Assembly: GCF_001570525.1 (NCBI RefSeq)
Contig: NZ_BBXC01000010.1
Location: 434,001-498,000 of the forward strand
From: Herbidospora sakaeratensis
GTDB lineage: Bacteria > Actinomycetota > Actinomycetes > Streptosporangiales > Streptosporangiaceae
DNA: 64,000 nt
Direction: 5' to 3'
Part shown: piece after piece, positions 33,361 through 54,305 of the stretch
How the letters are laid out: each line of letters begins with the position of its first letter
Position numbering within the stretch: the first letter of the stretch is position 1
The notes under the pieces: model-generated
What the model saw: the letters and a program-made list of their open reading frames with translations, nothing else
Database searches by the model: none
Told to the model about the DNA's origin: nothing
Position numbers and translations under genes: made by a program

Positions 33361-33482
33361 GACACGGAAGCTAGCACGCCGTGAGTGTCATGGCTTGCAC
33401 ATGACGCTTGTCACGTATCGCTGGTGTTAATCAGTTCTGGTGACGACGGTCGAACATGGCGAATCTGGACACGTGACGAAAT

Positions 33483-33511
33483 GGCAGCGAGTAGTCCAGA
33501 TACCCGCTGCC
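33483..33511 (+). promoter_or_regulatory. Leader stem-loop with GTCCAGA loop, upstream of precursor 1
   Basis: GGCAGCGAGTA-GTCCAGA-TACCCGCTGCC: an 11-bp stem with one mismatch and the same 7-nt loop as at 34049 and 35772. It lies about 50 nt before the precursor 1 start. Whether it works as RNA or as an inverted-repeat operator is unknown. Confidence 0.6.
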
Positions 33512-33560
33512 GAACCCCGCCGGAAACCGGTTATGCGCCGAGGCAGAAGGAGTTCCCCCA

Positions 33561-33887
33561 ATGGCCGAAAGCATTTACGTTCTTGGTGACGAAGACCGTC
33601 AGAAGTTCGCCCGCCTGATCGCCGCCGCATGGTCGGACGAAGACGTCAAGACCCGTTTCGAGGCCGAGCCCCGCACGGTGCTCGCCGAGTACGGCGTCGT
33701 GATTCCCGAGGGCATCCCGACCCCGCCGCTGCCCGCCCGCCCCGAGGGCGAGTTCAGCGTCGAGGAGCTGGAGATGGCGGCCGGCGCGCAGGCCGAGGGC
33801 ACCGCCGGCACCGCGGGCACGCTGGGCACCATCGGCGGCTGCTTCGGCACCGCCGGGACCTACGGCTCGGCCGCCGCCGCCATGTAG
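33561..33887 (+). CDS. RiPP precursor 1 with NHLP (nitrile-hydratase-type) leader
   Basis: 108 residues from ATG at 33561 (AAGGAG 8 nt upstream). The leader (about 1-76) is a nitrile-hydratase-alpha-like NHLP leader: 'DEDRQKFARLIAAAWSDEDV', 'EYGVVIPEGIPTPPLPARPE', ending 'EELEMAAGA', where a C39 peptidase would cut after Gly-Ala. The core is Gly/Thr-rich with repeated T-x-G triplets ('GTAGTAGTLGTIGGCFG', 'TAGTYG'), one Cys and an Ala-rich end. The Thr and Cys residues are the likely sites of dehydration or azole formation. It is a close paralogue of precursor 2 and shares its upstream sequence. Confidence 0.9.
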   Translation: MAESIYVLGDEDRQKFARLIAAAWSDEDVKTRFEAEPRTVLAEYGVVIPEGIPTPPLPARPEGEFSVEELEMAAGAQAEGTAGTAGTLGTIGGCFGTAGTYGSAAAAM

Positions 33888-33903
33888 TCACGCCTGCCTG
33901 ATC

Positions 33904-33941
33904 TGCCCCGGGGGCGCGGTTTCCGCCGCGCCTCCGGGGCA
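33904..33941 (+). terminator. Terminator hairpin after precursor 1
   Basis: TGCCCCGG-g-GGCGCGG pairs with a complementary right arm ending CCGGGGCA, one internal mismatch and a loop of about 6 nt (TTTCCG). It starts 17 nt after the stop and is followed by TTTCGCATTTCG. Confidence 0.75.
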
Positions 33942-33968
33942 TTTCGCATTTCGTGTCATCGATTCCAT

Positions 33969-34128: not shown

Positions 34129-34443
34129 ATGGCCGAAAGCATCTACATTCTCGGTGACGAGGACCGCGCGAAGTTCGCCCGCCTGATCGCCGCCGCGTGG
34201 GCGGACGAGGACGTCAAGGCCCGCTTCGACCAGGAGCCCCGCGAACTGCTCGCCGAGTACGGCGTCGTGATCCCCGAGGGCGTGCCCACGCCGCTGCTGC
34301 CCGCGCGTCCCGAGGGCGAGTTCAGCGTCGAGGACCTGCAGGTGGCGGCCGGCGCCCAGGTCGAGGGCTGCGTCGGCACCGCCGGCACGCTCGGCACCAT
34401 CGGCGGCTGCGCCGGCACCGCAGGCACCTACGGCTGCGCCTGA
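34129..34443 (+). CDS. RiPP precursor 2 with NHLP leader
   Basis: 104 residues from ATG at 34129 (AAGGAG 9 nt upstream), starting MAESIYILGDEDRAKFARLI, nearly identical to precursor 1. The leader ends 'EDLQVAAGA'. The core begins QVEGC and holds the same T-x-G run (GTAGTLGTIGGCAGTAGTYG) but with three Cys (EGCVG, GGCAG, YGCA) where precursor 1 has one. The close pairing of sequence and differing Cys count suggests recent duplication and core diversification. Confidence 0.9.
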   Translation: MAESIYILGDEDRAKFARLIAAAWADEDVKARFDQEPRELLAEYGVVIPEGVPTPLLPARPEGEFSVEDLQVAAGAQVEGCVGTAGTLGTIGGCAGTAGTYGCA

Positions 34444-34452
34444 CCCCGTCGA

Positions 34453-35461: not shown

Positions 35462-35749
35462 ATGCCGGAAGACTCGACCCTGCCCCCCGAACTCCGCACC
35501 CGGTTCGCCCGGTTCTCCGCTCTCGCCTGGTCAGACGAGACGCTCAGGGAGGACTTCGAACAGGACCCCCGCGCCGCGCTCGCCGCGGCGGGCATCGACT
35601 GGCCGGGCGACCTGCCGGTGCCGCCGCTGCCCGCACGGCCCGAGAACGCCATCGACCTGGAGAGCCTGGAGGCGTCGGCCGGCGCCGCACTCAGCACGAT
35701 CGGCACCGTGAGCTGCCCCACCGGGTGTTTCTCCCGTCAGAACAGCTGA
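35462..35749 (+). CDS. RiPP precursor 3 with NHLP leader
   Basis: 95 residues from ATG at 35462 (GAGGTGA 5-6 nt upstream). The leader keeps the family pattern: 'RTRFARFSALAWSDETLRED', 'DPRAALAAAGIDWPGDLPVP', 'ESLEASAGA'. The core is short, about 20 residues: ALSTIGTVSCPTGCFSRQNS, with two Cys and several Ser/Thr. It differs strongly from precursors 1 and 2 but resembles precursor 6 in 'STIGTVSC'/'ATISTVGC'. No GTCCAGA stem-loop lies upstream. Confidence 0.87.
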   Translation: MPEDSTLPPELRTRFARFSALAWSDETLREDFEQDPRAALAAAGIDWPGDLPVPPLPARPENAIDLESLEASAGAALSTIGTVSCPTGCFSRQNS

Positions 35750-35843: not shown

Positions 35844-36122
35844 ATGACCCTAGACACCAACGGCCTGGACACCGCCCAGCGCAGAGTGTTCGGCGAGCTG
35901 ACCGCCCGCTCCTGGTCCGACGCCGGTCTCCGGCTCCGCTACGAACGCGAGCCCGTCGCCGTCCTGGCCGAATACGACATCCACCTGGCCGAGGGCATGC
36001 CCGCGCCGGCGCTGCCCCCGCGGCCCGCCGCCGAGGTCGTGGTCGAGACCCTCAGCGACCCGGTGGCCGTCACACCGCCGTGCCTCGACTTCTGCTTCTG
36101 CTGGATGCAGGTCTCCAAATGA
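35844..36122 (+). CDS. RiPP precursor 4 with NHLP-like leader and Cys/aromatic core
   Basis: 92 residues from ATG at 35844 (GGGGAGA 6 nt upstream; a GTG directly before it is an alternative). The leader matches the others: 'RRVFGELTARSWSDAGLRLR', 'YEREPVAVLAEYDIHLAEGM', 'PAPALPPRPAAEVVVETL'. The usual AAGA cleavage motif is replaced by 'DPVAVTPP'. The core 'CLDFCFCWMQVSK' has three Cys among aromatic residues and almost no Thr. It may be processed elsewhere or serve a different purpose. Its stop overlaps the HlyD gene start. Confidence 0.8.
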   Translation: MTLDTNGLDTAQRRVFGELTARSWSDAGLRLRYEREPVAVLAEYDIHLAEGMPAPALPPRPAAEVVVETLSDPVAVTPPCLDFCFCWMQVSK

Positions 36123-36832
36123 CGACGACCGCCGTCGAGACGTCCGGGGGCGAGCGCATCGAGCAGCTCGTCTCCACAGTGCGGACCAAGGCGTGGCTCG
36201 CCGCGGTCGCCCTCGTCGTGGTCGCGGGCAGCGGGGCCGGCTGGGCCTGGCTCGGGCAGGTCCGCGACGTCGTCCTCGCCTCCGGCGTGCTGGTGACGGG
36301 CGGCGGCCCCGCTCCCGTCGCCGCGCCGGTCGCGGGCAGCCTGGCCGAGGTGCTCGTCACGGCCGGGCAGGAGGTGGCCCCCGGCACGTCGCTGGCGGTG
36401 CTGGCCGGCGCCGACGGCACCCGGCGCGTCGTCGCCGCCGCGTCGGCGGGCCGGGTGATCCGCACCGCCGTGCCGGGCACGGCCCTGGCCGCGGGCGCCC
36501 CCGTCGCGGTCGTCGACCCGGCCGCCGGGCCGCTGAAGGCCGTGCTCCTGGTGGGCCCCGACCGGATCGGCGCGCTCACCGCGGGACAGCCGGTCACGGT
36601 CACCGGCGCGGGCCCCGGCAGGGTCAGCGCCGTCGACCCCTATCCCGCCTCGACCGACCAGCTGCGGCCCGTCTACGGCGACGCGCTCAAGGCCGACGGC
36701 CGTTATCTGGTGACCGTCGACCTCGACCGCCCGGCCTGGCCCGGCGCCACGCTGACCCCCGTCGCCGGGGAGATCACCGTCGCCACCGTCCGCCCGGTGG
36801 ACGCGCTGTTCCACGGAGGCCCCCGTGGCTAG
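36119..36832 (+). CDS. HlyD-family membrane fusion protein of NHLM secretion system
   Basis: 237 residues; ATG at 36119 overlaps the precursor 4 stop (ATGA). One transmembrane helix at about 27-48 ('AWLAAVALVVVAGSGAGWAW'), then a biotinyl-lipoyl-like segment: 'ASGVLVTGGGPAPVAAPVAG', 'LVTAGQEVAPGTSLAVLAGA', 'PVAVVDPAAGPLKAVLLVGP'. The long coiled coil of Gram-negative HlyD is missing, as expected without an outer membrane. It works with the two ABC proteins downstream to export matured peptides. Confidence 0.87.
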   Translation: MTTTAVETSGGERIEQLVSTVRTKAWLAAVALVVVAGSGAGWAWLGQVRDVVLASGVLVTGGGPAPVAAPVAGSLAEVLVTAGQEVAPGTSLAVLAGADGTRRVVAAASAGRVIRTAVPGTALAAGAPVAVVDPAAGPLKAVLLVGPDRIGALTAGQPVTVTGAGPGRVSAVDPYPASTDQLRPVYGDALKADGRYLVTVDLDRPAWPGATLTPVAGEITVATVRPVDALFHGGPRG

Positions 36833-38984
36833 GACCGCGACCCGCCCGGTCCGCACCGAGCGCCGCCCGCAGATGGAGGACGCCGACTGCGGGCCCGCCT
36901 GCCTCAGCATGGTCTTCGCCTACCACGGCCTGCGGGTCCCCCTCCACGAGATCAGGGAGCGGTCGGGCGTCGGGCGCGACGGCCTGTCGGGGGCGGGGCT
37001 CAAGAAGGCGGCCGAGGAGTACGGCTTCGACATCACCGGCTTCCGCCTGGACGCCGACGAACTGGCCGACTACCCCGTCCCCTCGATGATCTTCGTCGAC
37101 CAGCGCCACTTCGTGGTGCTGGAGGGCATGCGCAAGAAGTGGGCGTACGTCAACGACCCCGCGATCGGCCGGATCCGGCTCAGCCGGCCCGACTTCCGCA
37201 AGCGGTTCAGCGGGATCGTGCTGGTGCCGCGGCCCGGCGAGGGCTTCACGCCCGGCGGGAAACGGTTCCCGCTGGTGCGCTCCGCGCTCGGGAAGGTCCG
37301 GCCCTACCTCTCCACGCTGCTCGCCATCGCCGTGATGGCCTTCATGCTCGCGCTGCCCGCCGTGGCCACCGCGCTGCTCACCCGGCTGCTGCTGGGGGAG
37401 GTGCTGATCGCAGGGGAGGCCACCTGGTCGGCGCCCGTGCTGCTCGGCCTGCTGGCCTGCGCGGCGTTCACCCTGGTCGGGACCTGGTCGCAGCAGCGGC
37501 TGCTCGGCGCGGTGCAGACCGCGATGGCGGCCGACCTGTCGGGCCGGTACATGTGGCGGCTGCTCCGGCTGCCGGGCGACTTCTTCCACCGCCGGATGAC
37601 CGGCGGCCTGGTGATGAAGACCTCGTTCGGCGCGGGCCTGGCCATCCTGCTGTCCGACCGGGCCGCCGCCGCGGTGGCGGCCGTCCTGACGATGGTGCTG
37701 CACTCGGCGATCCTGTACGCCTTCCACCCGGCCTTCGCCCTGGTCGCCGGGGCCCTGGCGGCGGTCAACCTGCTGGCGATGCGCGCGGTCAGCCGGGCCG
37801 CCGCCCCGCACCAGCAGAAGCTGCTCTTCGACGAGCACCGCCGCGACGGCATGGCCTTCAACGGCATCTCGATGGCCGAGTCGCTCAAGGCCGACGGCGC
37901 CGAGGGCTGGTTCTTCCAGAAGTGGGCGGGCCTGTCGGCCAAGGCGCTGGCGACCACCCAGGACCTCATGCGGACCACACAGGCGCTCCTGGCGGTGCCG
38001 GCCGCCCTCGGCTCGCTCGCCGGCGCGACCATGGTGATCACCGGCGCGGTCCTGATGGCCAACGGCGAGGTCACCCTGGCCACGGTCATCGCCGCCCAGT
38101 TGCTCGTCGGCGCGTTCCTGGTGCCGGTCACCGCGCTGGTCGGCATCGGCGCCGAGGCCCAGATCGCGGTCGCCCAGACCAGCATGTACGACGACGCGAT
38201 CAGCGCCGAACCCGATCCCCAGTACGCCGCCCTCCCCGGCGCCCCCGAGACCGACGGCGGCCTGCGCGGCGCGGTCGAGTTCCACGACGTCAGCTTCGGC
38301 TACGACCGCCAGCGCGGCCCGGTCATCAGCGGCCTGTCGTTCCGGGTCGAACCCGGCCAGCGGGTCTCCGTCGTGGGGCGTACCGGCAGCGGGAAGTCGA
38401 CCGTCGCCCGGTTGCTCACCGGCGCGGTCAAGCCGTGGTCGGGCCAGATCCTCCTCGACGGCATCCCCCGCGAGCACTGGCCCCGGGAGACGCTCACCAC
38501 GTCGATCGGCTACGTCGAGCAGAACCTCCAGGTCTTCGAGGGCACCGTCGCCGACAACCTGACGCTCTGGGACCCGACCATCCCGCAGTACCGGCTGCAC
38601 CGGGCGTTGTCGGACGCCGGCCTCGCCGACGTCGTCGCCCGCCGAGGCGGCCTGTCGGGCGGCTGGATCCAGGAGCGGGGCCGCAACCTGTCGGGCGGCG
38701 AGCGGCAGCGGCTGGAGATCGCCCGGGCGCTCGTGTTGTCGCCTTCGGTGCTGGTGCTCGACGAGGCGACCAGCGCCCTCGACGCCGAGACCGAGGCGTT
38801 CGTCGACGCCAACGTGAAGTCGCGCGGCTGCACCAGCGTGGTGATCGCGCACCGGCTCAGCACCGTGCGCGAGAGCGACCTCATCCTCGTGCTCGACCGG
38901 GGGAAGGTCGTCCAGCGCGGCACCCACGCCGAGCTCATCGCCGTCCCGGGCCACTACCGCACGCTGGTCGAGGAAGCCTCATGA
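36825..38984 (+). CDS. NHLM-type peptidase C39 / ABC exporter
   Basis: 719 residues from GTG at 36825, overlapping the HlyD gene by 8 nt. A C39 double-Gly peptidase lies at about 15-130, with Cys in 'EDADCGPACLSMVFAYHG', His in 'VDQRHFVVLEG' and Asp in 'YVNDPAIGRI'. Six transmembrane helices follow, then the nucleotide-binding domain: Walker A 'GRTGSGKSTVAR', signature 'LSGGERQRLEIARALVL', Walker B 'LVLDEATSALDAET', H-loop 'VIAHRLSTV'. It removes the NHLP leader after the Gly-Ala site and exports the core. All catalytic residues are present. Confidence 0.95.
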   Translation: MARTATRPVRTERRPQMEDADCGPACLSMVFAYHGLRVPLHEIRERSGVGRDGLSGAGLKKAAEEYGFDITGFRLDADELADYPVPSMIFVDQRHFVVLEGMRKKWAYVNDPAIGRIRLSRPDFRKRFSGIVLVPRPGEGFTPGGKRFPLVRSALGKVRPYLSTLLAIAVMAFMLALPAVATALLTRLLLGEVLIAGEATWSAPVLLGLLACAAFTLVGTWSQQRLLGAVQTAMAADLSGRYMWRLLRLPGDFFHRRMTGGLVMKTSFGAGLAILLSDRAAAAVAAVLTMVLHSAILYAFHPAFALVAGALAAVNLLAMRAVSRAAAPHQQKLLFDEHRRDGMAFNGISMAESLKADGAEGWFFQKWAGLSAKALATTQDLMRTTQALLAVPAALGSLAGATMVITGAVLMANGEVTLATVIAAQLLVGAFLVPVTALVGIGAEAQIAVAQTSMYDDAISAEPDPQYAALPGAPETDGGLRGAVEFHDVSFGYDRQRGPVISGLSFRVEPGQRVSVVGRTGSGKSTVARLLTGAVKPWSGQILLDGIPREHWPRETLTTSIGYVEQNLQVFEGTVADNLTLWDPTIPQYRLHRALSDAGLADVVARRGGLSGGWIQERGRNLSGGERQRLEIARALVLSPSVLVLDEATSALDAETEAFVDANVKSRGCTSVVIAHRLSTVRESDLILVLDRGKVVQRGTHAELIAVPGHYRTLVEEAS

Positions 38985-41503
38985 GCGGATACCCCGTCAG
39001 CGAGATCGAGCTGATCGACCCCTACGCCTGCTGGACCGTCGTCAGCGGTTCGGTCGACGTGATGCTCTCGCCCGTCGACGGCGCCGGCCCCCGCCACCGC
39101 GTGGTCCGGGTGGAGAGCGGCGAGCTCATGCACGGGTTCGCCGCCACCGACCTGCCCGGCGGCTACACCGTCGTGGCCTCGCCCGCCGAGGGGACCGCCG
39201 TCCGCCGCGTCCGCCGCGACGCCGACGCCGTCTCCTCCTGGGTACGCCGCCTCAACGGCCCCACCGGCGCGGACGCCGCCCCCAGCCTCCGCGACCTGCA
39301 CCGGGGCACCCTCACGCGGGTGCTCATGCTGGCCGAGGCGGAGGAGGCCGACCGCGACCACTGGCGGGCGGCCCGCGCCCAGGCCGCCGACGACATGCTG
39401 CGCCGGTCGTTCGCCGACATCGCGGCCGCCGCCGGGGTCGCGCCGGTGCCGGGCAGCCCGCGTACGGCCGCCGACCGGGCCGTGGAGGTCGTCAAGGCGC
39501 TCGGCGACCACTGCGGCTTCGCCGCGCACGCCATCGACCCGGCGTCCACCGATCCGCTCGGCGCGGCGCTCGACCTGGCCAGGGCCCGGCACCGGAAGGT
39601 GCTGCTCGACGACGGCTGGTGGCGCGAGGCGACCGTGCCGCTGGTCGGCTTCCTCAAGGCCGGCGGGCGGCCGGTGGCGCTGCTGCCGCACAAGGGCGGC
39701 TACCTGATCGCCGACCCGTCGGAGGAGCGGCGCCGCGTCACCGACGAGGTGGCCGCGGCCCTCGACGCGCACGCCTGGCAGATCTATCCGCCGCTCGACG
39801 AGGGCCTCACCTCGCCACTCGCGCTGCTCCGCTACGGCCTGCGCGGCGCGGGCCGCGAACTGGCCTGGTTGCTGGCGGCCGGCGGCGGGGCCGCTCTGCT
39901 CGCGCTCGGCGTGCCGATGCTCACCTTCGTGCTGCTGACCGCCGCGCAGCACCCGGCCGACCAGCCGGCCATGATCTGGATCGCGGTCGTCATCGCGGGC
40001 GCGGTCACCGCCAGCACCCTGCTCCTGGCCGTGCGGAACGCGGTGCTGGTGAGGGTGCAGGGGCGGTTGCAGGAACGCCTCGAACCGGCCATCTGGAGCC
40101 ATCTCGTCTCGCTCGACCTGCCGTTCTACTCCCAATACAGCACCGGCAACCTGGTCCACCGGGCCAACGCCGTGGCCGACATGCGCAAGGCGCTCGGCGA
40201 GGCGGCGGTCAACTCGCTGCTCGGCGGCGTGTTCTCGCTGCTGGGCCTGCTGATCCTGGTCACTGTCGACTGGCGGCTCGCGCTGGTCGTGCTCGGCGGG
40301 GTGCTGGTGCTGCTGGCCGTGCTGGCCGCGCTCGCCGTGCGGCAGCAGAAGCACGAGCTGGTCATGCACGAGGAGTACGGCCGCATCTACTCCCTCCTGT
40401 ACGCCTGCCTCAGCGCCATCGACAAGATCCACGTCGCCGGGCGGGAGGCGCAGGTCTTCGGCCTGTGGTCACGGGCGTTCTCCGCCCAGCAGGGCGCGGC
40501 CTCGGCGGCCCGGCGCGAACGGGCCGTGTCGGCGGCGATCGGCGCGGCGGCCCAGCCGCTGCTGCTGCTCCTGCTCGCCTTCACCGGGTTGTCGCTGGAC
40601 GTGCCGGCGGCCTCGTTCGTGGTCGCGGCCGTGGCGCTGGGCCAGTTCGTCCTGGCGCTCGGCCAGGTCAGCCGGGCGGTGGAGGCGGCCTTCGCGCTGC
40701 TGCCCCGGTTCGAGCGGCTGAAGCCGCTGCTGGAACGCGCGCCCGAGACGCCTCCCGGGGCCAAGGACCCGGGCGAGCTGGCCGGGCTGGTCCGGCTGCA
40801 CGACGTGTCGTTCGCCTACCCGGGCACCGCCAAGCAGATCCTCGAAGAGGTGTCGATGGTGTTCCGGCCCGGCGAGTTCGTCGCCGTCACCGGCCACTCG
40901 GGGGCGGGCAAGTCGACGCTCGTACGCCTGCTGCTCGGCTTCGAGCCGCCGCGTACCGGACAGGTCCTCTACGACGGCGGTGACCTGCGCGACCTCGACC
41001 TGCGGCGGGTCCGCACCCAGGTCGGCGTGGTGATGCAGCAGGCCAGAGTGCTACGCGGCTCGGTGCTGGAGAACATCATCGGCGACGTGCCCGGGGCCCG
41101 CGAGGAGGACGCCTGGCGGGCGGCCCGGCTGGCCGACCTCGACGGCGACATCGCCCGGTTGCCCATGGGCATGCACACCATCATCAGCGAGGACAACGCC
41201 TCCTTCTCCGGCGGCGAGCTGCAACGGCTGCTCATCGCCCGCGCGCTGGTGAAACGGCCCCGGGTGCTCATCCTCGACGAGGCCACCAGCGCCCTCGACA
41301 ACGTCACCCAGGCGCTGGTCAGCCGCCGGATCGCCGAGCTCGACATCACCCGGATCGTGATCGCCCACCGGCTGAGCACCATCAGGTCGGCCGATCGGAT
41401 CTACGTACTCGACCAGGGCAGGGTCGTCGCCAACGGCACCTTCGAGGAGCTGATGGAGGACAACGAGCTGTTCGCCCGGATGGTCCGCCGACAGGAGGTC
41501 TGA
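38981..41503 (+). CDS. NHLM-type ABC exporter, second subunit with N-terminal regulatory domain
   Basis: 840 residues; ATG at 38981 overlaps the previous stop. The first about 280 residues lack C39 catalytic residues and begin with a cyclic-nucleotide-binding-like beta domain ('YACWTVVSGSVDVMLSPVDG', 'ELMHGFAATDLPGGYTVVAS'), followed by a pseudo-peptidase-like segment ('LKAGGRPVALLPHKGGYLIA'). Six helices and the ATPase follow: 'GHSGAGKSTLVRLLLG', 'FSGGELQRLLIARALVK' (Phe and Glu variants of LSGGQ), 'LILDEATSALDNVT'. This matches the second ABC protein of NHLM systems. It probably heterodimerises with the C39 protein. Confidence 0.93.
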   Translation: MSGYPVSEIELIDPYACWTVVSGSVDVMLSPVDGAGPRHRVVRVESGELMHGFAATDLPGGYTVVASPAEGTAVRRVRRDADAVSSWVRRLNGPTGADAAPSLRDLHRGTLTRVLMLAEAEEADRDHWRAARAQAADDMLRRSFADIAAAAGVAPVPGSPRTAADRAVEVVKALGDHCGFAAHAIDPASTDPLGAALDLARARHRKVLLDDGWWREATVPLVGFLKAGGRPVALLPHKGGYLIADPSEERRRVTDEVAAALDAHAWQIYPPLDEGLTSPLALLRYGLRGAGRELAWLLAAGGGAALLALGVPMLTFVLLTAAQHPADQPAMIWIAVVIAGAVTASTLLLAVRNAVLVRVQGRLQERLEPAIWSHLVSLDLPFYSQYSTGNLVHRANAVADMRKALGEAAVNSLLGGVFSLLGLLILVTVDWRLALVVLGGVLVLLAVLAALAVRQQKHELVMHEEYGRIYSLLYACLSAIDKIHVAGREAQVFGLWSRAFSAQQGAASAARRERAVSAAIGAAAQPLLLLLLAFTGLSLDVPAASFVVAAVALGQFVLALGQVSRAVEAAFALLPRFERLKPLLERAPETPPGAKDPGELAGLVRLHDVSFAYPGTAKQILEEVSMVFRPGEFVAVTGHSGAGKSTLVRLLLGFEPPRTGQVLYDGGDLRDLDLRRVRTQVGVVMQQARVLRGSVLENIIGDVPGAREEDAWRAARLADLDGDIARLPMGMHTIISEDNASFSGGELQRLLIARALVKRPRVLILDEATSALDNVTQALVSRRIAELDITRIVIAHRLSTIRSADRIYVLDQGRVVANGTFEELMEDNELFARMVRRQEV

Positions 41504-44500: not shown

Positions 44501-44642
44501 TGACCACACCGGCCGCTGGTTCGCCGACCGGCGCCGGGCCGACCGGCTCTCCCTGTCCGCCGTCAACGGACTGGCCGCCGCCGGTCTCACCCTCCTGCGG
44601 CTGGCCGACGACGAGGTCGCCTCCATCCGGCTCGTGCACTGA
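41505..44642 (+). CDS. LanM-like type 2 lanthipeptide synthetase with degenerate cyclase domain
   Basis: 1,045 residues from ATG at 41505 (AGGAGG 6-7 nt upstream). The dehydratase (DUF4135) keeps most kinase/lyase residues: Asp267/His269 in 'GDLHNHGR', Lys289 in 'VYKPKD', Asp364 and Asn369 in 'RDLWADNL', Asp in 'FIDLE', Arg511 and Thr517 in 'VRYIWRST'. The usual His of D-x-H-x2-N is Trp366. The LanC-like part (about 700-1045) keeps its repeats ('GLSPVGAFVGVGSAVYAL') but not the zinc site: GxxHG is 'GVPTG', WCxG is 'ALDTPG', CHG is 'CAG'. It should at most phosphorylate and dehydrate Ser/Thr. Lanthionine ring closure is unlikely. Confidence 0.9.
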   Translation: MPVTIPQHEGLLSVPGGDARLMAVIAAAAPFHERVAGDHFVPVAGRSRRQASERTQRWLRAAVGDDEDAKRAVLHHRNRSGRDLGAGLVDVQLADPRRLPDWGYALVDFLLAQPPTAAADPATGRPGAPFVAFRRAMNRLVDVKDGSVRGVPVTAEAREDIAGQLIERLTQACWAGFAFEAQLAGTSNDLSSWLQSPGLDVSQSGWLDRLETLPGLAYVMGTTCLQWRRVVHELFDRLRADLPRLRRTLWGWAAPGPVTGYSGDSGDLHNHGRVVTLLTFASGERVVYKPKDLRSVAGLMDVCTLLNNHGLPLALHTREVVLRDGYGWEEYVVAEPSTDEESVRRFYTRLGMFARLAQFLECRDLWADNLVAIGETPAFIDLENVLQGRISQPAVIGERIEALWGKVEDTVVKTAVVSFPRPIAGGVQAQDVGCLAALREQIAENSAGFPAGWEEPPYRPTWGDGRLADPRHYADEVAEGYRQMQACLERNQELLADDYGPLALLEEAPVRYIWRSTFDCGDMLRLSVSPGALVDGVAREVCLAHLFRSAMGTLRVDPGRTDILEIIEQEIDAFRRMDIPLFLSKPASDSAFTPDGVEIPGHFTGTAWQRLQDRVADLAGFPLEEHLGVLQTCLDITGAAEVPVEFPGAAPRPKTIREIGLHAYEQASRGDEPPVEELLVRAGDLANEILAAAVPVGGDRSAWLGVVTYPAHGLDQVEPLHGDLLTGTAGLAVFLSELYANTGAPGHWTAAQEALDASVEFATLSAQSAVYRRMCGGLSPVGAFVGVGSAVYALSRCGEALGDTRLIERAAELLPLAEAQLAGTTSAEPVLGRAGLLLAVHKLREASATAVPAADALARRLHDELNEELLAGPPARLPHPPGVAALAGVPTGADGLTWALASSTAAFGETPAESLTAHRFALDTPGSLLAAVATAHALTGEVPAELRDRVARQCAPAPARTCAGLVVDAEIALHTARLTGDQGLARTARDLTAELLLRRDHTGRWFADRRRADRLSLSAVNGLAAAGLTLLRLADDEVASIRLVH

Positions 44643-46893: not shown

Positions 46894-48215
46894 TCGGCCT
46901 GCGCGCGGACGCCGTCGTCGCCTGGCAGGACGGCGTCCTGACGATCGCCCACACCTTCGGCGTCCAGGCCGCGCGCGGCCTGACCCCCCGCATCGCGGCG
47001 CTGCTCGGCGAGCTCCCCGGCGCGCTCGTGCACGAGGACGACCTGGCCGAACGCCTGCTGGAGCAGGGCGGGTCGAGCGAGGAGGTGGCCCTGCTCTACC
47101 TGGTGCTCGACCGGCTGCACCAGGTGCTCGTGCACACCGTCGACCCGCTGCTCCGGGTCGTCCCGATCGCCCGCGACGCGACGTTCCGGCTGCCGAAGCT
47201 GGCGCCCGACGACACCGTGCGGTTGTCGCGGTTCGCGCTGGTCCGCCTCGCGGACGACGGCCTGATCCTGGAGTCGCCGTTGTCGCGGCACCGGGTCACC
47301 CTGACCGAGGAGGCCATGCCGCTGATCGCGGCGCTGGCCCGCGGGGTGCTGGTGAAGGAGGCGCCCGAGGCGCTGGCCCATCTCGTCGCGGCCGGCCTGG
47401 CGGGCGACGAGCTGATCGAGGACGACCACCCCGCGCTGCGCGCCTGGGAGTTCCACGACCTGCTCTTCCACAGCAGGTCCCGGGTCGGCCGGCACGACCA
47501 GCCCGTCGGCGCGACCTTCCGGTTCCGCGGCGAGACGCCGCCGGAACCGGCGCTCAAACCGCTGCCGGAGGGCCCGGTCACCGACTTGTTCCGGCCCTCG
47601 CTCGACGAGCCGAGCCCGGCCTTCACGACGGTGCTCGAAGGCCGCCGGTCGGTGCGCTCCTACGCGTCGGCCCTCACGGCCCGCCAGCTCGGCGAGCTGC
47701 TCTACCGGACCGCCCGGGTCAGGGCCGTCTTCAGCCCGACCGAAGGCGCGCCGTACGAGACCAGCAGCCGCCCCTACCCCGGCGGCGGGGCCTGCCACGA
47801 GCTGGAGCTCTACCTGACCGTGCGCGAGTGCGAGGGGCTGGAGAGCGGCGTCTACTACTACGACCCGCTCGGCCACCGCCTCGTCCGGTTGGCGGCCAGG
47901 GCCGAGGACCAGCGGGCGATGCTGGCCGTCGCGAGCATGTCGACCGGCTACACCGCGCAGCCCGACGTCCTGGTCACCATCACCTCGCGTTTCCAGCGCA
48001 TGTCGTGGAAGTACGCCGGGCTGGCCTACGCCGCGTCGCTGAAGAACGTCGGCGTGCTCTACCAGACCTTCTATCTCGTGGCCACCGCGATGGGCCTGTC
48101 GCCGTGCGGCCTCGGCGCGGGCGACGCCGAACTGGCGGCCCGCACCTTCGGGCTCGACTGGGCCGCCGAGTCGTCGGTCGGCGAGTTCCTCATCGGCGGT
48201 ACGCCCGGCTTGTGA
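46890..48215 (+). CDS. SagB-type FMN azoline dehydrogenase
   Basis: 441 residues; GTG at 46890 overlaps the YcaO stop. The nitroreductase-like C-terminal half begins 'FTTVLEGRRSVRSYASALTA', then 'SSRPYPGGGACHELELYLTV', 'SGVYYYDPLGHRLVRLAARA', 'WKYAGLAYAASLKNVGVLYQ' and 'ATAMGLSPCGLGAGDAELAA'. These match SagB (McbC) dehydrogenases, including the Lys and Tyr used in azole formation (here 'YYYDPLGH'). The N-terminal half is a partly degenerate SagB-like/winged-helix region. It oxidises azolines to azoles with FMN. The stop codon lies within the regulatory repeat that precedes precursor 5. Confidence 0.92.
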   Translation: MIGLRADAVVAWQDGVLTIAHTFGVQAARGLTPRIAALLGELPGALVHEDDLAERLLEQGGSSEEVALLYLVLDRLHQVLVHTVDPLLRVVPIARDATFRLPKLAPDDTVRLSRFALVRLADDGLILESPLSRHRVTLTEEAMPLIAALARGVLVKEAPEALAHLVAAGLAGDELIEDDHPALRAWEFHDLLFHSRSRVGRHDQPVGATFRFRGETPPEPALKPLPEGPVTDLFRPSLDEPSPAFTTVLEGRRSVRSYASALTARQLGELLYRTARVRAVFSPTEGAPYETSSRPYPGGGACHELELYLTVRECEGLESGVYYYDPLGHRLVRLAARAEDQRAMLAVASMSTGYTAQPDVLVTITSRFQRMSWKYAGLAYAASLKNVGVLYQTFYLVATAMGLSPCGLGAGDAELAARTFGLDWAAESSVGEFLIGGTPGL

Positions 48216-48320: not shown

Positions 48321-48632
48321 ATGGCCGAGAGCATGTACGTGCTCGGAGAAGACGACCGCAAGAAGCTGGCCCGCCTGATCGCCGCGGCGTGGTCGGACGC
48401 CGAACTGCAGGCGCGCTACGCCACCGAGCCCCGGGTCGTGCTGCGTGAGTTCGGCATCGTCTATCCGGCCGGTGTGCCCACCCCGCCGCTGCCGGCCAAG
48501 CCCGAGGGCGAGTTCGAGATCGCCGACCTGGAGAGCGCGGCCGGGGCGGCCGGCCTCACGACCGGCAGCGTCGGGGAGCCGTGCGCGTCGTGCTACTCGC
48601 AGGGCGCGACGTGGATCACCGGCAACCACTGA
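48321..48632 (+). CDS. RiPP precursor 5 with NHLP leader
   Basis: 103 residues from ATG at 48321 (GAGGAG 7 nt upstream). It begins MAESMYVLGEDDRKKLARLI and continues 'AWSDAELQARYATEPRVVLR', 'FGIVYPAGVPTPPLPAKPEG', 'ADLESAAGA'. The core AGLTTGSVGEPCASCYSQGA, then TWITGNH, has two Cys in a C-A-S-C arrangement plus several Ser/Thr. It lies after the modification genes, unlike precursors 1-4. Confidence 0.9.
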   Translation: MAESMYVLGEDDRKKLARLIAAAWSDAELQARYATEPRVVLREFGIVYPAGVPTPPLPAKPEGEFEIADLESAAGAAGLTTGSVGEPCASCYSQGATWITGNH

Positions 48633-48741: not shown

Positions 48742-49038
48742 ATGGCCGAGTACCTGTACATCTTCGGAGATGAGGACCGCAAGAAGTTCGCCCGGTTGAT
48801 CGCGGTCTCCTGGTCGGACGGCGAGCTGCTGGCCCGCTACGAGGCCGAACCCCGGGTCGTGCTCGGCGAGTACGGCATCGCCTACCCCGAGGGCCTGGCC
48901 ACCCCGCCGCTGCCGGCCCGGCCGCGCGGCGAGTTCGACATCACCGAGATGGAGTTCGCGGCCGGCGCGGAGAACGGCGCGCTGGCCACGATCAGCACGG
49001 TCGGCTGCATCGCCCTGTGCCACTCGGACCCGCGATGA
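48742..49038 (+). CDS. RiPP precursor 6 with NHLP leader
   Basis: 98 residues from ATG at 48742 (GAAGGAATGAG upstream). Leader: MAEYLYIFGDEDRKKFARLI, 'SWSDGELLARYEAEPRVVLG', 'YGIAYPEGLATPPLPARPRG', 'TEMEFAAGA'. Core ENGALATISTVGCIALCHSD then PR, with two Cys and three Ser/Thr, resembling precursor 3. The stop overlaps the ABC ATPase start (ATGA), so precursor and exporter translation are linked. Confidence 0.9.
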   Translation: MAEYLYIFGDEDRKKFARLIAVSWSDGELLARYEAEPRVVLGEYGIAYPEGLATPPLPARPRGEFDITEMEFAAGAENGALATISTVGCIALCHSDPR

Positions 49039-49940
49039 ACGACCCGGTGATCGAGGTCGTCGACCTCAGGAAACGCTACGGGGACTTCACCGCGGTCGAC
49101 GGGATCTCGTTCGACGTCCACGCGGGCGAGGTGTTCGCCCTGCTCGGCACCAACGGGGCCGGCAAGACCACCACGATCGAGATCCTGGAGGGCTACCTGC
49201 GGCCCACCGGCGGCACGGCGCGGGTCTTCGGCCACGCCCCCGCCGACCGCGGCCCGTTCCGGTCGCGGATCGGGGTGGTCCTCCAGGAGTCCGGCCTGTT
49301 CGGCGACCTGTCGGCGGCCGAGACCGTGACCGCCTGGCGCCGGTTCACCACCGGCGCCCGGACCGTCGCCGAGGCCCTCGACCTGGTGGGCCTGTCGGAC
49401 CAGGCCGGCACCCGGGTCAAGCAGTTGTCCGGCGGCGAACGGCGCAAGCTCGACCTCGCCCTGGCCACGCTCGGCCGTCCGGACCTGCTGTTCCTCGACG
49501 AACCGACGACGGGCCTCGACCCCGAGGCGCGCCGCCGCATCCGCGACCTGGTCGGCGATCTGGCCGCCGGGGGCACGACGGTGCTGCTCACCACCCACTA
49601 CCTGGAGGAGGCCCAGGAGCTCGCCTCCCGGGTGGCCATCATGGACAGAGGCCGCGTCGTGGTGCACGGCACGATGGCCGAGGTGCTCGGCCGGGGCACC
49701 GGCCGGGTCGCCTTCGACCTGCCCGAGGGCGCGACCACCGACGGGCTGGAGGTCGGCCCGTCGGATGTGGTCACGGTGTCCGGCCGCAGCTGCCTGATCG
49801 TCACGGCCGAGCCCGAGTCGGCCGCCCACACCGTGCTCGGCTGGTCGGTCCGGCGCGGGGTGCGCATCAGCGGCCTCGACGTCCGCCAGGCCACGCTCGA
49901 AGAGGTCTTCCTGGACGTCGCCAGGGAGGTCAGGGCGTGA
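49035..49940 (+). CDS. ABC transporter ATP-binding protein (DrrA-like)
   Basis: 301 residues; ATG at 49035 overlaps the precursor 6 stop. Walker A 'LLGTNGAGKTTTIEILEGYL', signature 'QLSGGERRKLDLALATLG', Walker B 'LLFLDEPTTGLDPEARR', H-loop 'LLTTHYLEEAQELASR', and a C-terminal regulatory extension. It is of the DrrA/CcmA multidrug type and pairs with the permease downstream. Next to a RiPP cluster it most likely provides immunity or a second export route. Confidence 0.95.
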   Translation: MNDPVIEVVDLRKRYGDFTAVDGISFDVHAGEVFALLGTNGAGKTTTIEILEGYLRPTGGTARVFGHAPADRGPFRSRIGVVLQESGLFGDLSAAETVTAWRRFTTGARTVAEALDLVGLSDQAGTRVKQLSGGERRKLDLALATLGRPDLLFLDEPTTGLDPEARRRIRDLVGDLAAGGTTVLLTTHYLEEAQELASRVAIMDRGRVVVHGTMAEVLGRGTGRVAFDLPEGATTDGLEVGPSDVVTVSGRSCLIVTAEPESAAHTVLGWSVRRGVRISGLDVRQATLEEVFLDVAREVRA

Positions 49941-50668
49941 CCACGTACACGATCGCGCACTTCCGGCTGACCCAGCGGTTGTTCTGGCGCACCCCCGTGT
50001 CGATCTGGGTGGCCCTCGGCTTCCCCGTGCTGTTCGCCTGGTTGTTGCCGCTGGCGGTGCCGAATCCCGAGCGGCTGATCGTGGGCGTCATCGTGATGGG
50101 GGCCGGGCTGCTCGGGTTCGCGACGCTGCTGGAGTCGTTCGTCGTGAAACGCCAGCAGCTGATCCTCAAGCGGCTGCGCGGCACCGAACTGCCCGAGACG
50201 GCGATCTTCGGCGGCGAGATCCTGACCGTGGTGTCGATCGGGCTGGTCCAGCTCGTGGCGATCGTCGCCGTGGCGAACGGCGTGCACGGCCTGCCCCTGC
50301 CGGCCAATCCGGCGCTGCTGCTGGTGACCATGCTGCTCGGGCTGGCGGTGTTCGCCGCGATGGGCGTCGCGGTGAGCGGCCGCACCCCCTCGACGGGGGC
50401 CATCATCGCCGTCAGCCTGCCGTTCCACCTGCTCACCATGGGCCTGTCGGGGTTCGCGATCCCGTTCTCGGCCTTCCCCGACTGGGCCCTGACCGTCAAC
50501 GGCTTCCTGCCGTTCGCGCGGGTGGCCGAAGGGGTGTCCCTGTCCTACTTCGACCCCGACGCCGGAATCCCGGAGCTGGGGGCGGGGTGGCTCGTCCTGA
50601 TTGTCTGGTCGGTCCTGTCGCTGCTGGCGGCGAGGAGGTGGTTCAGGTGGGAACCGCGGAGAGGCTGA
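49937..50668 (+). CDS. ABC-2 type permease
   Basis: 243 residues; GTG at 49937 overlaps the ATPase stop. Six helices are expected: 'FWRTPVSIWVALGFPVLFAW', 'LIVGVIVMGAGLLGFATLLE', 'ILTVVSIGLVQLVAIVAVAN', 'LLVTMLLGLAVFAAMGVAVS', 'IIAVSLPFHLLTMGLSGFAI', and a C-terminal 'WLVLIVWSVLSLLAARRWFR'. It is the ABC2 partner of the ATPase. The end overlaps the kinase gene by 22 nt. Confidence 0.92.
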   Translation: MTTYTIAHFRLTQRLFWRTPVSIWVALGFPVLFAWLLPLAVPNPERLIVGVIVMGAGLLGFATLLESFVVKRQQLILKRLRGTELPETAIFGGEILTVVSIGLVQLVAIVAVANGVHGLPLPANPALLLVTMLLGLAVFAAMGVAVSGRTPSTGAIIAVSLPFHLLTMGLSGFAIPFSAFPDWALTVNGFLPFARVAEGVSLSYFDPDAGIPELGAGWLVLIVWSVLSLLAARRWFRWEPRRG

Positions 50669-51828
50669 CCGGCGTCGGCCCCGGCACGGTCCGGCTCGCG
50701 CGCATCGCGGCGGCGGTCTTCACCGTGGGCATGGCGATCTTCGCCGTGCTCCCGCTCGCGGAGGTCCTCGGGAGGTTCCCCGGCGTCCGGGGCGCCCTGG
50801 CGGTGCTGCTGCTGACCGGGCTGACCGGGGGTTACCTGTGGCTCGGCGTGCGGGCCGTGCTCGGCCGGGGCGGCCGGCCCGACCTGGTGGTGCTGGGCGC
50901 GATGACGGCGGTGGCCGTGGCGTTGCCGTTCGCCGCGGGGCCCTCCTGGCTGAGCCTCGGGTTCATGCTCCCGTACGCCTATGCGGTGACCCTGCGCGGC
51001 AGGGCGGCGTGGGCGGGCTTCTTCGCGGCGCTGATCCTGGAGGTCGGGCTGTCGGCCGGCCCGAACCCGAGCTGGGTGATGTTCAGCGGGCTGCAGAGCC
51101 TGCTCACGGCGGCCGCGCTGGCCGGCCTGACCATCTTCGCGACGCTGCTGAGCGAGCTGCAGCGCACCCGCGAGGAACTGGCCCGGCTCGCCATCACCGA
51201 GGAGCGGCTGCGGTTCGCCCGCGAGCTGCACGACGTGCTCGGGCACAACCTGTCGGTGATCGCGATGCGCACCGAACTGTCCATGCGCATCCCCGCCGAC
51301 CAGCGGCCCAAGCTCAACCGGGAACTGACCGAGATCCACGACATCGCCCGGCGGTCCCTCCACGACGTGCGCGCCGTGGTCAAGGGCTACCGCGAGATGT
51401 CACTGGAGAAGGAGCTGAGCGGGGTCAGGAAGGTCCTGGAGAGCGCCGGCGTCAAATGCGACTTCGCCGCCCTGCCGGTCACGCTGTCGGCGGAGGTCCG
51501 GGTCGCGCTGGCCTGGGCGATCCGCGAGGCCGCCACCAACCTGCTGCGGCACAGCGACGCCACCGTCTGCCTGCTCGACGTCGAGGAGGACGGCGACCGG
51601 ATCAGGGTCACCGTCTCCAACGACGGTGTACGCCCGTCGCCGCCCGCGAACGCCGCCGACGCCGCCGTGGGCGGGAGCGGCCTGGCCGGGCTCGACGAAC
51701 GCCTCGCACAGGTCGGCGGGAACTGCGACCGGCACCTCGAAGACGGCTGGTTCACGCTGTCGCTGGACGTTCCCGGCCGCCCCACGGCGGCGGCCGCTCT
51801 CACCTCTGCCACAGGAGACCGGAAATGA
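50647..51828 (+). CDS. NarL-type sensor histidine kinase 1
   Basis: 393 residues from GTG at 50647 (AGGAGG 7-8 nt upstream). Multiple helices at about 15-165 form a membrane sensor with almost no extracellular loop. HisKA_3: 'RLRFARELHDVLGHNLSVIA' with the phospho-His. ATPase: N box 'WAIREAATNLLRHSDATV', G box 'VGGSGLAGLDERLAQVGG'. It ends overlapping the response regulator start. It probably senses membrane or peptide-related signals and controls exporter or precursor expression. Confidence 0.93.
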   Translation: MGTAERLTGVGPGTVRLARIAAAVFTVGMAIFAVLPLAEVLGRFPGVRGALAVLLLTGLTGGYLWLGVRAVLGRGGRPDLVVLGAMTAVAVALPFAAGPSWLSLGFMLPYAYAVTLRGRAAWAGFFAALILEVGLSAGPNPSWVMFSGLQSLLTAAALAGLTIFATLLSELQRTREELARLAITEERLRFARELHDVLGHNLSVIAMRTELSMRIPADQRPKLNRELTEIHDIARRSLHDVRAVVKGYREMSLEKELSGVRKVLESAGVKCDFAALPVTLSAEVRVALAWAIREAATNLLRHSDATVCLLDVEEDGDRIRVTVSNDGVRPSPPANAADAAVGGSGLAGLDERLAQVGGNCDRHLEDGWFTLSLDVPGRPTAAAALTSATGDRK

Positions 51829-52466
51829 TCAAAGTTCTGATCGCCGAGGACCACGATCTCATCAGAGGAGCCCTGATCGCCCTGCTGTCGGAGGAGCGGG
51901 ACATCCGGGTCATCGAGGAGGTCTCCCGGGGCGACGAGATCCTGCCCGCCGTCGTCGACAGCAAGCCCGACGTGGCCCTCCTCGACATCGGCCTGCCCGG
52001 CATCGACGGCCTGGAGGCGGCCGGCCTGATCAAGGAGCTGGAGCAGCCGCCGCCGGTGCTGATCCTCACCAGCGTCGGCTCGCCGGGCAACTTCGACCGG
52101 GCGATGGCCGCGGGCGTGCGCGGCTTCCTCGTCAAGGACGCGCCCGCCCACCGGCTCACCGACGCCATCCGCGCGGTGGCCAGGGGCGAGCGCTACATCG
52201 ACCTCGACCTGGCCGACGACGACGGCGACGGCGGCCGGGAGCCGGAGATCACCACCAACCCGCTGACCGCGCGGGAGATCACCGTGTTGTCGGCGCTCGC
52301 GGCCGGCGGGCGCGGCAGCGATCTGCGCGGCAGCCTCGGCCTGTCGGCCCACACGATCCGCAACTACCTCGCCGCCGCCCGCCTGAAGACCGGCGCCCGC
52401 AGCGACGAGGAGGCCGTCCGCATCGCCCGTGCTAACGGGTGGTTAAACGACAATGCCGACTGTTGA
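51825..52466 (+). CDS. NarL/FixJ-family response regulator 1
   Basis: 213 residues; ATG at 51825 overlaps the kinase stop (ATGA). Receiver: 'KVLIAEDHDLIRGALIALLS', phospho-Asp in 'VALLDIGLPGIDGLEAAGLI', 'LTSVGSPGNFDRAMAAGVRG', Lys in 'GFLVKDAPAHRLTDAIRAVA'. A LuxR-type HTH follows an acidic linker: 'LTAREITVLSALAAGG', 'LGLSAHTIRNYLAAARLKTG'. It is a candidate binder of the TGATGTCCGTCAT elements. Confidence 0.94.
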   Translation: MIKVLIAEDHDLIRGALIALLSEERDIRVIEEVSRGDEILPAVVDSKPDVALLDIGLPGIDGLEAAGLIKELEQPPPVLILTSVGSPGNFDRAMAAGVRGFLVKDAPAHRLTDAIRAVARGERYIDLDLADDDGDGGREPEITTNPLTAREITVLSALAAGGRGSDLRGSLGLSAHTIRNYLAAARLKTGARSDEEAVRIARANGWLNDNADC

Positions 52467-52493
52467 TCGCGAACCGCTTAAGCGTCACGATCA
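52464..52493. promoter_or_regulatory. Nested palindrome between the two two-component pairs
   Basis: TGATCG-cgaac-CGCTTAAGCG-tca-CGATCA: a perfect 10-bp palindrome enclosed by 6-bp arms. It starts within the response regulator 1 stop and ends 41 bp before the second kinase. It is a likely operator or promoter-proximal element for the second pair, not a terminator, since no T-run follows. Confidence 0.5.
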
Positions 52494-52534
52494 GTAGGAA
52501 ACTTGACGCCTCGGACACGTAGCGGAGACCACTC

Positions 52535-53683
52535 GTGGCGCAGCAGAACGAAGCGCAGGTCAGGGGGCTGTCGATAGGTGTCGTCGTGCCGACGGGCGCG
52601 CTCTGGGGCCTCACCCCCATCGCGTTCCTGCTCAGCGGCGACCCGCTCCGGGCACTGCTGTCGGGCGTCCTGCTCGCCGGCCTCCTCGTCGTGTACTGGA
52701 AGGTCGTCGTCGGCCACATCGCCGGAACCGGCCCCGGGCCGCACGCCGGGCGGATCTTCGCCCTGTTCGCCGTCGTCGTCTACGGCTCGTTCCCGCTGCT
52801 CGGCCTGGCGTGGGCGTACATGCCCCTCATCGTCGGCACCGCGGCCCTGCTGCTGCTCCGCTTCCGCCTCGCCGCGCCCGTGCTGGCCGTGGTGGCCGCC
52901 GCCGAGATCCCGCTGACGGCGGCCATCGGCGAGGTCTCCCGCACCGCCGCCCTGCAGGCCGCCGCCGCGGTCTTCGTCGCCTCCGTGGTCGCCGCCGGGA
53001 TGGTCCACTACGCCAGGTTCATCAGGGAGCTGCGCGAACTGCGGGCGGTCCTGGCCGAGATGGCCGTGGACGAGGACCGGGTCCGGCTGGCCGGGGAACT
53101 GCACGACCTGCTCGGCCAGACGCTGGCGTCCATCAGGCTCAAGACCGAGGTCGCCCTGGCCCTGTTCGACCGCGACCGCACCCGCGCCATGGACGAGATC
53201 GAGGCCACCATCGCCATCGCCAGCGAGGCCCGCGAGGAGATCGGCGACGTCGTCGCCGCCCGCCGCTCCCTCGACCTGGGCGCCGAACTCTCCGCCGCCG
53301 TCGCCCTGATCGAACTGACCGGCGCCCGCTGCGACCTGCGCCTCGGCATCACCGAGATCGACGAGGTCACCGGCGACGCCCTCGCCTGGATCGTCAGAGA
53401 GGCCGCCACGAACGTCGTCAGGCACAGCACCGCCCGCACCTGCGTCATCCAGCTCGACGACAAGGACGGCCGCATCCACCTGCTGATCGGCAACGACGGC
53501 GCCCGCCGCGCCACCAGGGGCGACGGCTCGGGCCTCATCGGCCTCCGGCAGCGCGTCGACCGGCTGCACGGCGAACTGCGGGCCGAAGAGACAGGCACGG
53601 ACGGTTTCGAACTGCGGGTCTGGCTGCCCGCCGTCCCCGATCAGGAGAGAGTGATCACCGTTGATTCGCGTTCTGCTGGCTGA
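52535..53683 (+). CDS. NarL-type sensor histidine kinase 2
   Basis: 382 residues from GTG at 52535. Helices at about 13-160 ('LIGVVVPTGALW'-type start, 'IFALFAVVVYGSFPLLGLAW', 'AAVFVASVVAAGMVHYARF'). HisKA_3 motif 'RVRLAGELHDLLGQTLASIR'; N box 'WIVREAATNVVRHSTART'; G box 'GDGSGLIGLRQRVDRLHG'. It overlaps the response regulator 2 gene by 23 nt. Its membrane and dimerisation parts resemble the degenerate kinase at 34551, suggesting common origin. Confidence 0.93.
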   Translation: MAQQNEAQVRGLSIGVVVPTGALWGLTPIAFLLSGDPLRALLSGVLLAGLLVVYWKVVVGHIAGTGPGPHAGRIFALFAVVVYGSFPLLGLAWAYMPLIVGTAALLLLRFRLAAPVLAVVAAAEIPLTAAIGEVSRTAALQAAAAVFVASVVAAGMVHYARFIRELRELRAVLAEMAVDEDRVRLAGELHDLLGQTLASIRLKTEVALALFDRDRTRAMDEIEATIAIASEAREEIGDVVAARRSLDLGAELSAAVALIELTGARCDLRLGITEIDEVTGDALAWIVREAATNVVRHSTARTCVIQLDDKDGRIHLLIGNDGARRATRGDGSGLIGLRQRVDRLHGELRAEETGTDGFELRVWLPAVPDQERVITVDSRSAG

Positions 53684-54305
53684 AGACCACGGTGTCGTAC
53701 GCGGCGCCCTCGCCGTCCTGCTGAACCTGACCGGCGACATCGAGGTCGTGGCCGAGACCGACCGGGGCGACAAGGTCGTCGCCCAGGCCCTCGCCGCCCG
53801 CCCCGACGTGGCCGTGGTCGACATCGAGATGCCGGGAGCCGACGGGATCGAGGCGACCTGCCGCCTGCGAGCGGCCCTGCCGACCTGCCGGGTGCTCATC
53901 CTGACGGCCCTGGCCCAGACGACCCTGCTCAAACGCGCCATGGACGCCGGCGCCAGCGGCTTCCTGCTGAAGGACGCCCCGACCGAACGACTGGCCGAGA
54001 GCATCCGCCGCATCGCCGCCGGAGAACGGGTCATCGACGCCTCCCTGGCGGTGGCGGCGATGACCGCGACGGCCTCCCTGCTGACCGAACGCGAGGCCGA
54101 CGTGCTGCGGCTGGTCGGCCTGGGCGCGACGACGGGGGAGATCGCGGCCGACCTCCACCTGTCGGCGGCGACGGTGCGGAACTACATCTCCAACATCATC
54201 ACCAAGACGGGCGCCCGCAACCGGACCGACGCGGTGCGGATCGCGGTCGACTCGGGCTGGATCGAACGACCGAGACCTAACGCCGCGACACCGGCCCGTC
54301 GGTAG
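53661..54305 (+). CDS. NarL/FixJ-family response regulator 2
   Basis: 214 residues from TTG at 53661 (AGGAGAGAG upstream). Receiver: 'RVLLAEDHGVVRGALAVLLN', phospho-Asp in 'VAVVDIEMPGADGIEATCRL', 'LTALAQTTLLKRAMDAGASG', Lys in 'GFLLKDAPTERL'. HTH: 'LTEREADVLRLVGLGATTGE', 'LHLSAATVRNYISNIITKTG'. Its last 29 bp overlap the tail end of the convergent GAP1 gene. Confidence 0.94.
   Translation: MIRVLLAEDHGVVRGALAVLLNLTGDIEVVAETDRGDKVVAQALAARPDVAVVDIEMPGADGIEATCRLRAALPTCRVLILTALAQTTLLKRAMDAGASGFLLKDAPTERLAESIRRIAAGERVIDASLAVAAMTATASLLTEREADVLRLVGLGATTGEIAADLHLSAATVRNYISNIITKTGARNRTDAVRIAVDSGWIERPRPNAATPARR

Follow-up and report, generated by a model that had tools for sequence, protein, structure and literature searches.

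What does a soil actinomycete make with a gene cluster that combines a LanM-like enzyme and azole-forming enzymes behind one type of leader peptide? The question is raised by a stretch of 64,000 nucleotides from Herbidospora sakaeratensis (contig NZ_BBXC01000010.1, positions 434,001 to 498,000), hereafter the window, in which one run (33561-49038) holds six precursors with NHLP-type leaders, an NHLM exporter trio, a LanM-like enzyme, a fused YcaO cyclodehydratase and a SagB-type dehydrogenase (Table 1). A preliminary description of this DNA had listed all of these genes, and each was found where it had been placed. It had also read them as a hybrid class of ribosomally synthesised and post-translationally modified peptides (RiPPs) that was not yet known. 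That reading is out of date; the gene set is of a known kind, with an enzyme pairing described in 2023. A new class was rejected because the dehydrazole paper describes the same pairing (PMC10676384), which nostatin A also shares (PMC11583998), and the cluster essentially falls within the already characterised dehydrazoles.

Around 50 dehydrazole clusters have been described, mostly in Proteobacteria and Actinobacteria, combining a YcaO protein, a DUF4135 enzyme without the zinc ligands of its cyclase, and NHLP-like leaders (PMC10676384). One such enzyme, CcaM, acts on Ser residues alone, and on these only where an azole follows directly; it does not need the leader (PMC10676384). We consider it probable that the window holds an uncharacterised member of this dehydrazole branch of the NHLP (proteusin) RiPPs, both in its class and in the general course of maturation set out below. 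Very probably, the cluster turns its six precursors (P1 to P6) into azole-bearing peptides, some of which are also dehydrated. What is new here is a contrast under the published rule between P3, P5 and P6, which have predicted dehydration sites, and P1, P2 and P4, which have none.

Conservation of the cluster

A pattern scan of a genome collection covering 84,980 species, which detects close relatives only, returned 16 loci, 14 of which hold a relative at 53-98% identity. A search for similar clusters had been suggested in the preliminary description. The HlyD-like subunit, both ABC subunits, LanM, YcaO, SagB and precursor leaders are present in all 14 further loci, and YcaO adjoins LanM in 15/15 clusters (the window and the 14 loci). 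Because the run is conserved in 14 further loci, a chance arrangement can be excluded. The two remaining loci, both from Verrucomicrobiota, have a distant LanM together with NHLM exporters, and no YcaO was found in their examined DNA.

Of 341 genomes in the family, 16, counting that of the window, hold a YcaO with at least 72% identity, and LanM is found in 15 of these 16. A class-wide search for LanM-YcaO pairs found them in 3/394 genomes, all of the same family (E <= 1e-60), and a search with the Micromonospora protein found them in 8/394 (E <= 1e-40); two candidates were scored per genome in both searches, by which pairs elsewhere can have been missed. The genome searches overlapped in genomes, and their counts are not independent.

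Precursor cores and dehydration sites

All six leaders match TIGR04351 (TOMM_nitrile_2, NCBIfam), none reaching the curated cut-off of 65 bits, and four also match TIGR03793 weakly, below its cut-off. P4 lacks the A-A-G or S-A-G leader end found in the other five precursors. The cores had been sorted into three types; there are indeed several, but grouping by conservation gives four, namely A (P1 and P2), B (P3), C (P4) and D (P5 and P6). A type B core with TVSCP is found in 15/15 clusters, and a type C core in 14/15. One machinery probably serves these different cores, as had been supposed, with one operon and one leader set.

Azoles and dehydro-amino acids had also been expected together. 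This is likely for some cores, since the dehydratase and the azole machinery share an operon and one leader set, but it does not extend to all six. If dehydration is confined to Ser that immediately precedes an azole, there would be four sites, at most two in P3 and one each in P5 and P6, and none in P1, P2 and P4 (the azole positions are themselves predicted). In the cores of both P1 and P2, every Ser, Thr or Cys (8/8 in each) directly follows Gly; the P1 core has one Ser, and the P2 core has none. In the type A cores of ten other clusters, Ser occupies two or three of the places where P1 and P2 have Gly, with the third pre-azole Ser occurring in only part of these sister cores. From this comparison of sequences, P1 and P2 appear to have had their dehydration sites replaced in the course of evolution.

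We also counted the residue before each Ser, Thr or Cys in 47 distinct cores of types A, B and D, and compared the counts with 4000 shuffles. Gly was found at this position 135 times (shuffled mean 78.2; 0/4000 shuffles as high) and Ser 85 times (mean 66.1; 4/4000 as high), with Thr found 15 times (mean 63.5; 0/4000 as low). Tentatively, we propose that one machinery with one leader type has two product lines: X-Ser-azole, which an azole-dependent dehydratase would turn into X-Dha-azole (Dha, dehydroalanine), and X-Gly-azole, in which every site would have been lost by Ser-to-Gly change in one Herbidospora lineage. We give this proposal a little less than an even chance.

The LanM-like enzyme

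The LanM-like protein matches the DUF4135 dehydratase domain (PF13575, 264 bits) and has a partial LANC_like match above cut-off (37 bits, first third of the profile), and its cyclase part weakly resembles class III LanKC (NF038151, E 3.6e-6). The residues aligned to CylM D252, H254, K274, D347, N352, D364, R506 and T512 are retained in 15/15 orthologues; the CylM His349 position is occupied by Trp (D-x-W; Trp366 in the window's protein), to which we return below. At the columns of the zinc ligands (Cys, Cys, His), the 15 orthologues have Ala, Gly, Ser or a gap at the first, Cys in 14 and Ser in Micromonospora at the second, and Ala, Val or Glu at the third. By this alignment, two of the three ligand positions are lost in 15/15 and all three in Micromonospora, and a zinc pattern search found no match in any of the 15 orthologues. 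Eleven comparison LanMs in the same alignment have Cys-Cys-His (8) or Cys-Cys-Cys (3). This residue alignment included all 15 orthologues, and one other LanM alignment omitted 2/15. Because two of three ligand positions are lost throughout, "LanM-like" should not be read as lanthionine-forming. A canonical class II lanthipeptide cluster, in which LanM has a zinc-binding cyclase, was also considered, and was set aside given the lost ligand columns.

A wider control took in 21 loci from related genomes, which hold 22 other LanM-like frames (11/11 loci from one listing, 5/5 and 5/9 from two others, with four further loci left out). D-x-H is found in 21/22 of these frames and at least one zinc-type motif in 21/22, and YcaO is found in 0/21 of the loci, some of which end at contig ends.

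The preliminary description had considered that the LanM-like gene might be a pseudogene absent from sister clusters, which is not what we found. The frame is open in all 14 other loci (1035-1076 codons), and the ratio of nonsynonymous to synonymous substitution rates (dN/dS) relative to the window is 0.13-0.34 in 13/14 comparisons and 0.64 for Micromonospora, the most distant. With an open frame in 15/15 and dN/dS below 1 in 14/14 comparisons, a pseudogene or chance neighbour was ruled out, and by these signs the gene appears functional. Split by domain, dN/dS is 0.06-0.31 in 13/14 comparisons for the dehydratase part, and 0.24-0.44 in 13/14 and 0.70 in one for the cyclase part; in all 14, the cyclase part is under the weaker constraint of the two. 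The cyclase domain of CcaM is needed for dehydration (PMC10676384), and by analogy the domain here would be retained for a reason other than zinc-dependent ring closure.

When 39 LanM sequences are placed in a midpoint-rooted tree, the 15 orthologues group together as a single clade (support 1.0). The sequences nearest to this clade are L045 and two Verrucomicrobiota proteins, and all three keep Cys at the ligand columns. The Verrucomicrobiota LanM-like proteins (L042, L043), encoded beside NHLM exporters, have D-x-W as in the window, but also a W-C-H-G motif.

A relative without LanM

In one relative (G015), the locus (L090, G015:C2:225000-244999) runs in the order type C precursor, YcaO, SagB, type D-like precursor, kinase, regulator. 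It lacks HlyD, both ABC genes and LanM, which form the block between P4 and YcaO in the window. No LanM match was found anywhere in the G015 genome, the 20 kb of the locus showed no precursor with a type A or B core, and the sole other leader match in the genome is weak (E 5e-5). The G015 YcaO nests within the clade whose members are accompanied by LanM, grouping with the Sphaerimonospora sequence at support 0.95, so the HlyD-ABC1-ABC2-LanM block was most simply lost in this genome. A recent gain of the block was rejected, loss being simpler given this nesting. The G015 type C core has no Ser before an azole position and survives without LanM, which agrees with the Ser-before-azole rule in this one case. 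However, the D-like core contains one S-T, which disagrees with it.

Proposed course and alternatives

From the observed gene set, homology, conservation and residue pattern, we infer the following chemical steps, step order and cleavage sites. The leaders would be bound by the YcaO protein through its N-terminal domain. This protein would cyclise Cys, Thr and Ser to azolines, mainly where Gly or Ser precedes them, and oxidation by the SagB-type enzyme would convert the azolines to azoles. The LanM-like enzyme would then act, by phosphorylation and elimination, on Ser residues with an azole immediately after them, so that Dha-azole pairs but no lanthionine rings arise. Finally, the C39 exporter would cut after G-A or G-G and export the products. 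Under the published rule, P3, P5 and P6 would become peptides with azoles and Dha, and P1, P2 and P4 azole-only peptides.

Several points weigh against this course. Trp takes the CylM His349 position in 15/15 LanM-like proteins, and may affect the predicted dehydratase; in CylM, H349A is slow but active (PMC4550811). One zinc-ligand Cys persists in 14/15, and CcaM was compared by its published description rather than by sequence. Nor does the Ser-only rule hold across the whole class, since nostatin A has a Thr-derived dehydrobutyrine (Dhb) before an azole (PMC11583998). Were Thr before an azole to count as well, P5 would have one further predicted site. The shuffle significance is overstated because the cores are related, type D alone shows no Gly excess (20 vs 21.9), and type C shows no Ser excess (1 vs 4.4). 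Ser and Gly may also be favoured before azole positions because YcaO prefers small residues, in which case the pattern would be no mark of dehydration.

Could the LanM-like enzyme instead form (methyl)lanthionine without zinc, as in class III, on Cys spared by YcaO? The products would then be lanthionine-azole hybrids, which would fit the constraint on the cyclase domain, the Cys kept at one ligand column and the weak LanKC match, and the cores of P3, P5 and P6 carry both Cys and Ser/Thr. However, carnazolamide, which is made with a zinc-less LanMbC, has no lanthionine even though the zinc-less domain is needed for dehydration (PMC10676384), and the other two ligand positions are lost in 15/15, so we regard such hybrids as unlikely. 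We find it quite unlikely that the enzyme is catalytically impaired by its D-x-W, or is a scaffold only, with plain azole peptides as products. The conserved Trp speaks for this, as do the retention of YcaO and SagB in G015 without LanM and the three cores (P1, P2, P4) that require no dehydration under the rule; yet the eight other compared CylM catalytic residues are retained in 15/15, the dehydratase part is constrained, and LanM accompanies the close YcaO in 15 of 16 family genomes.

NCBIfam names P1 and P2 "thiocillin family RiPP" (NF033482, 36.2 and 35.2 bits; cut-off 25), which would point to a thiopeptide cluster. However, the scanned cluster proteins include no LanB-type dehydratase or pyridine synthase. 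The pyridine core of thiopeptides needs two Ser, more than the core of either P1 or P2 has, making this highly improbable. The dehydrazole reading is the one we prefer.

Gene content and other azole loci

With a YcaO cyclodehydratase, a dehydrogenase and a leader-binding domain, the set for a linear azole peptide, or thiazole/oxazole-modified microcin (TOMM), is complete (Table 1). The TIGR03794 match of the HlyD-like subunit is weak and covers the first quarter of the model. Downstream of the precursors, both kinase/regulator pairs are found in 13/14 loci, with two kinase places and one regulator place in Micromonospora (L040), and the ABC-2 gene pair has counterparts in 12/14 (absent from L030 and L038). 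A ThiF/E1-like protein is encoded at 27115-28374, upstream of the conserved run; the sister loci, which begin 10 kb before LanM, end short of that position.

Table 1. Genes of the Herbidospora sakaeratensis cluster, in window coordinates.
Feature	Coordinates	Strand	Supporting match
Precursor P1, type A core, X-Gly-Thr triplets	33561..33887	+	TIGR04351 E 8.4e-15
Precursor P2, type A core	34129..34443	+	TIGR04351 E 2.1e-14
Precursor P3, type B core, S-T and S-C	35462..35749	+	TIGR04351 E 1.9e-6
Precursor P4, type C core (Pro/Cys/aromatic)	35844..36122	+	TIGR04351 E 9.6e-16
HlyD-like subunit, NHLP exporter	36119..36832	+	TIGR03794 E 1.1e-10 (below cut-off), PF13437
C39 peptidase-ABC exporter (NHLM ABC1), probable leader peptidase	36825..38984	+	TIGR03796 729 bits (below cut-off, 853), PF03412
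NHLM ABC2 exporter subunit	38981..41503	+	TIGR03797 666 bits (below cut-off, 709)
LanM-like dehydratase with zinc-less cyclase domain (LanMbC-like)	41505..44642	+	TIGR03897 329 bits (above cut-off, 304)
Fused leader-binding/YcaO cyclodehydratase, LynD/TruD type	44653..46893	+	TIGR03882 and TIGR03604, both above cut-off
SagB/CyaGox-type azoline dehydrogenase	46890..48215	+	TIGR03605 170 bits (above cut-off)
Precursor P5, type D core, S-C and T-T	48321..48632	+	TIGR04351 E 2.4e-17
Precursor P6, type D core, S-T	48742..49038	+	TIGR04351 E 9e-16
Two-gene ABC-2 type transporter, possible self-protection	49035..50668	+	PF00005/TIGR01188, PF01061
Two histidine kinase/response regulator pairs, probable regulation; first kinase start uncertain	50587..54305	+	First pair PF07730, PF00072, PF00196; both pairs NCBIfam

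The window's genome also has a second cluster (L086, G000:C22:150000-169999), with a precursor frame from 8602, YcaO at 8859 and SagB at 11027. The precursor has a related short leader and a core ending in ...KPSLSSAKWTYCG. Its YcaO and SagB are 41% and 43% identical to those of the window, and a kinase/regulator pair is present, with no LanM match. A cluster of this type is also found in G005 (L087), a genome without the main cluster. Further YcaO matches in the window's genome lie at G000:C33:39910-43429 (four places in a row), C10:385859 and C7:344806, the last of which is 50% identical to the window's YcaO.

Significance

In the open-licence literature, the characterised products with the same enzyme pairing are carnazolamide and nostatin A, with a single core reported for each. 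Here, six natural cores, several of which differ at precisely the position that the dehydratase reportedly reads, provide a ready-made test of the rule, and one host could supply azole peptides both with dehydro residues and without them. Trp for His349, common to the 15 compared enzymes, makes the mechanism of azole-dependent elimination testable. If there are indeed two product lines, natural selection would turn dehydration on or off through one residue, the one preceding each azole, uncoupling the two enzymes precursor by precursor. The window's cluster belongs to a known class, of which it is an uncharacterised and well-conserved member, and its cores offer a useful contrast within one cluster.

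Comparison with known systems

The nearest solved structures to the window's cyclodehydratase and oxidase come from cyanobactin enzymes, LynD/TruD (LynD best, 689 bits) and CyaGox (218 bits). Unlike in cyanobactin clusters, however, the leader is of a different type, and no PatA/PatG-like protease is found among the scanned cluster proteins. Co-occurrence of the two enzyme sets also has precedents: Haft et al. (2010) place NHLP leaders beside either set and mention an Azospirillum genome with parts of both, and a Lachnospiraceae cluster with both LanM and YcaO (Huo et al., 2020) is cited in PMC10676384.

A closer relative is a six-precursor class II cluster of Herbidospora mongoliensis, noted for its precursor number by Walker et al. 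(2020), who also report YcaO genes in some class II clusters (PMC7268733). This cluster (L029; LanM 91% identical) is very probably the window's orthologue, although we find seven leader matches where they give six precursors. The seventh, in a frame from 1035 upstream of the six, has an aromatic/Cys core (ISADWWFPAPYCFCF...). Beyond this mention, we found no publication on the window's cluster in the open-licence literature.

Among characterised clusters, the carnazolamide cca cluster of Chryseobacterium carnipullorum (PMC10676384) is alike in its NHLP leader, its YcaO and dehydrogenase, and its DUF4135 enzyme without zinc ligands, as well as in Ser/Thr/Cys-rich cores with Ser before azole positions (in the window, predicted ones of P3, P5 and P6). 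It differs in having one precursor rather than six; in addition, the run from 33561 to 49038 in the window encodes a C39 exporter but neither a radical SAM epimerase nor a methyltransferase nor an S8 protease, and 3/6 of its cores have no Ser before a predicted azole position. The nst cluster of Nostoc, which makes nostatin A (PMC11583998), likewise combines a LanM-like enzyme, a cyclodehydratase, an oxidase and a proteusin leader. It adds an epimerase and a C-methyltransferase, and its product has a thioether and one Dhb before an azole. The nostatin A core consists largely of X-Dha-azole triplets, with the same period as the type A cores of the window's sister clusters; the type A triplets of the window itself, however, have Gly where nostatin A has a dehydrated residue.

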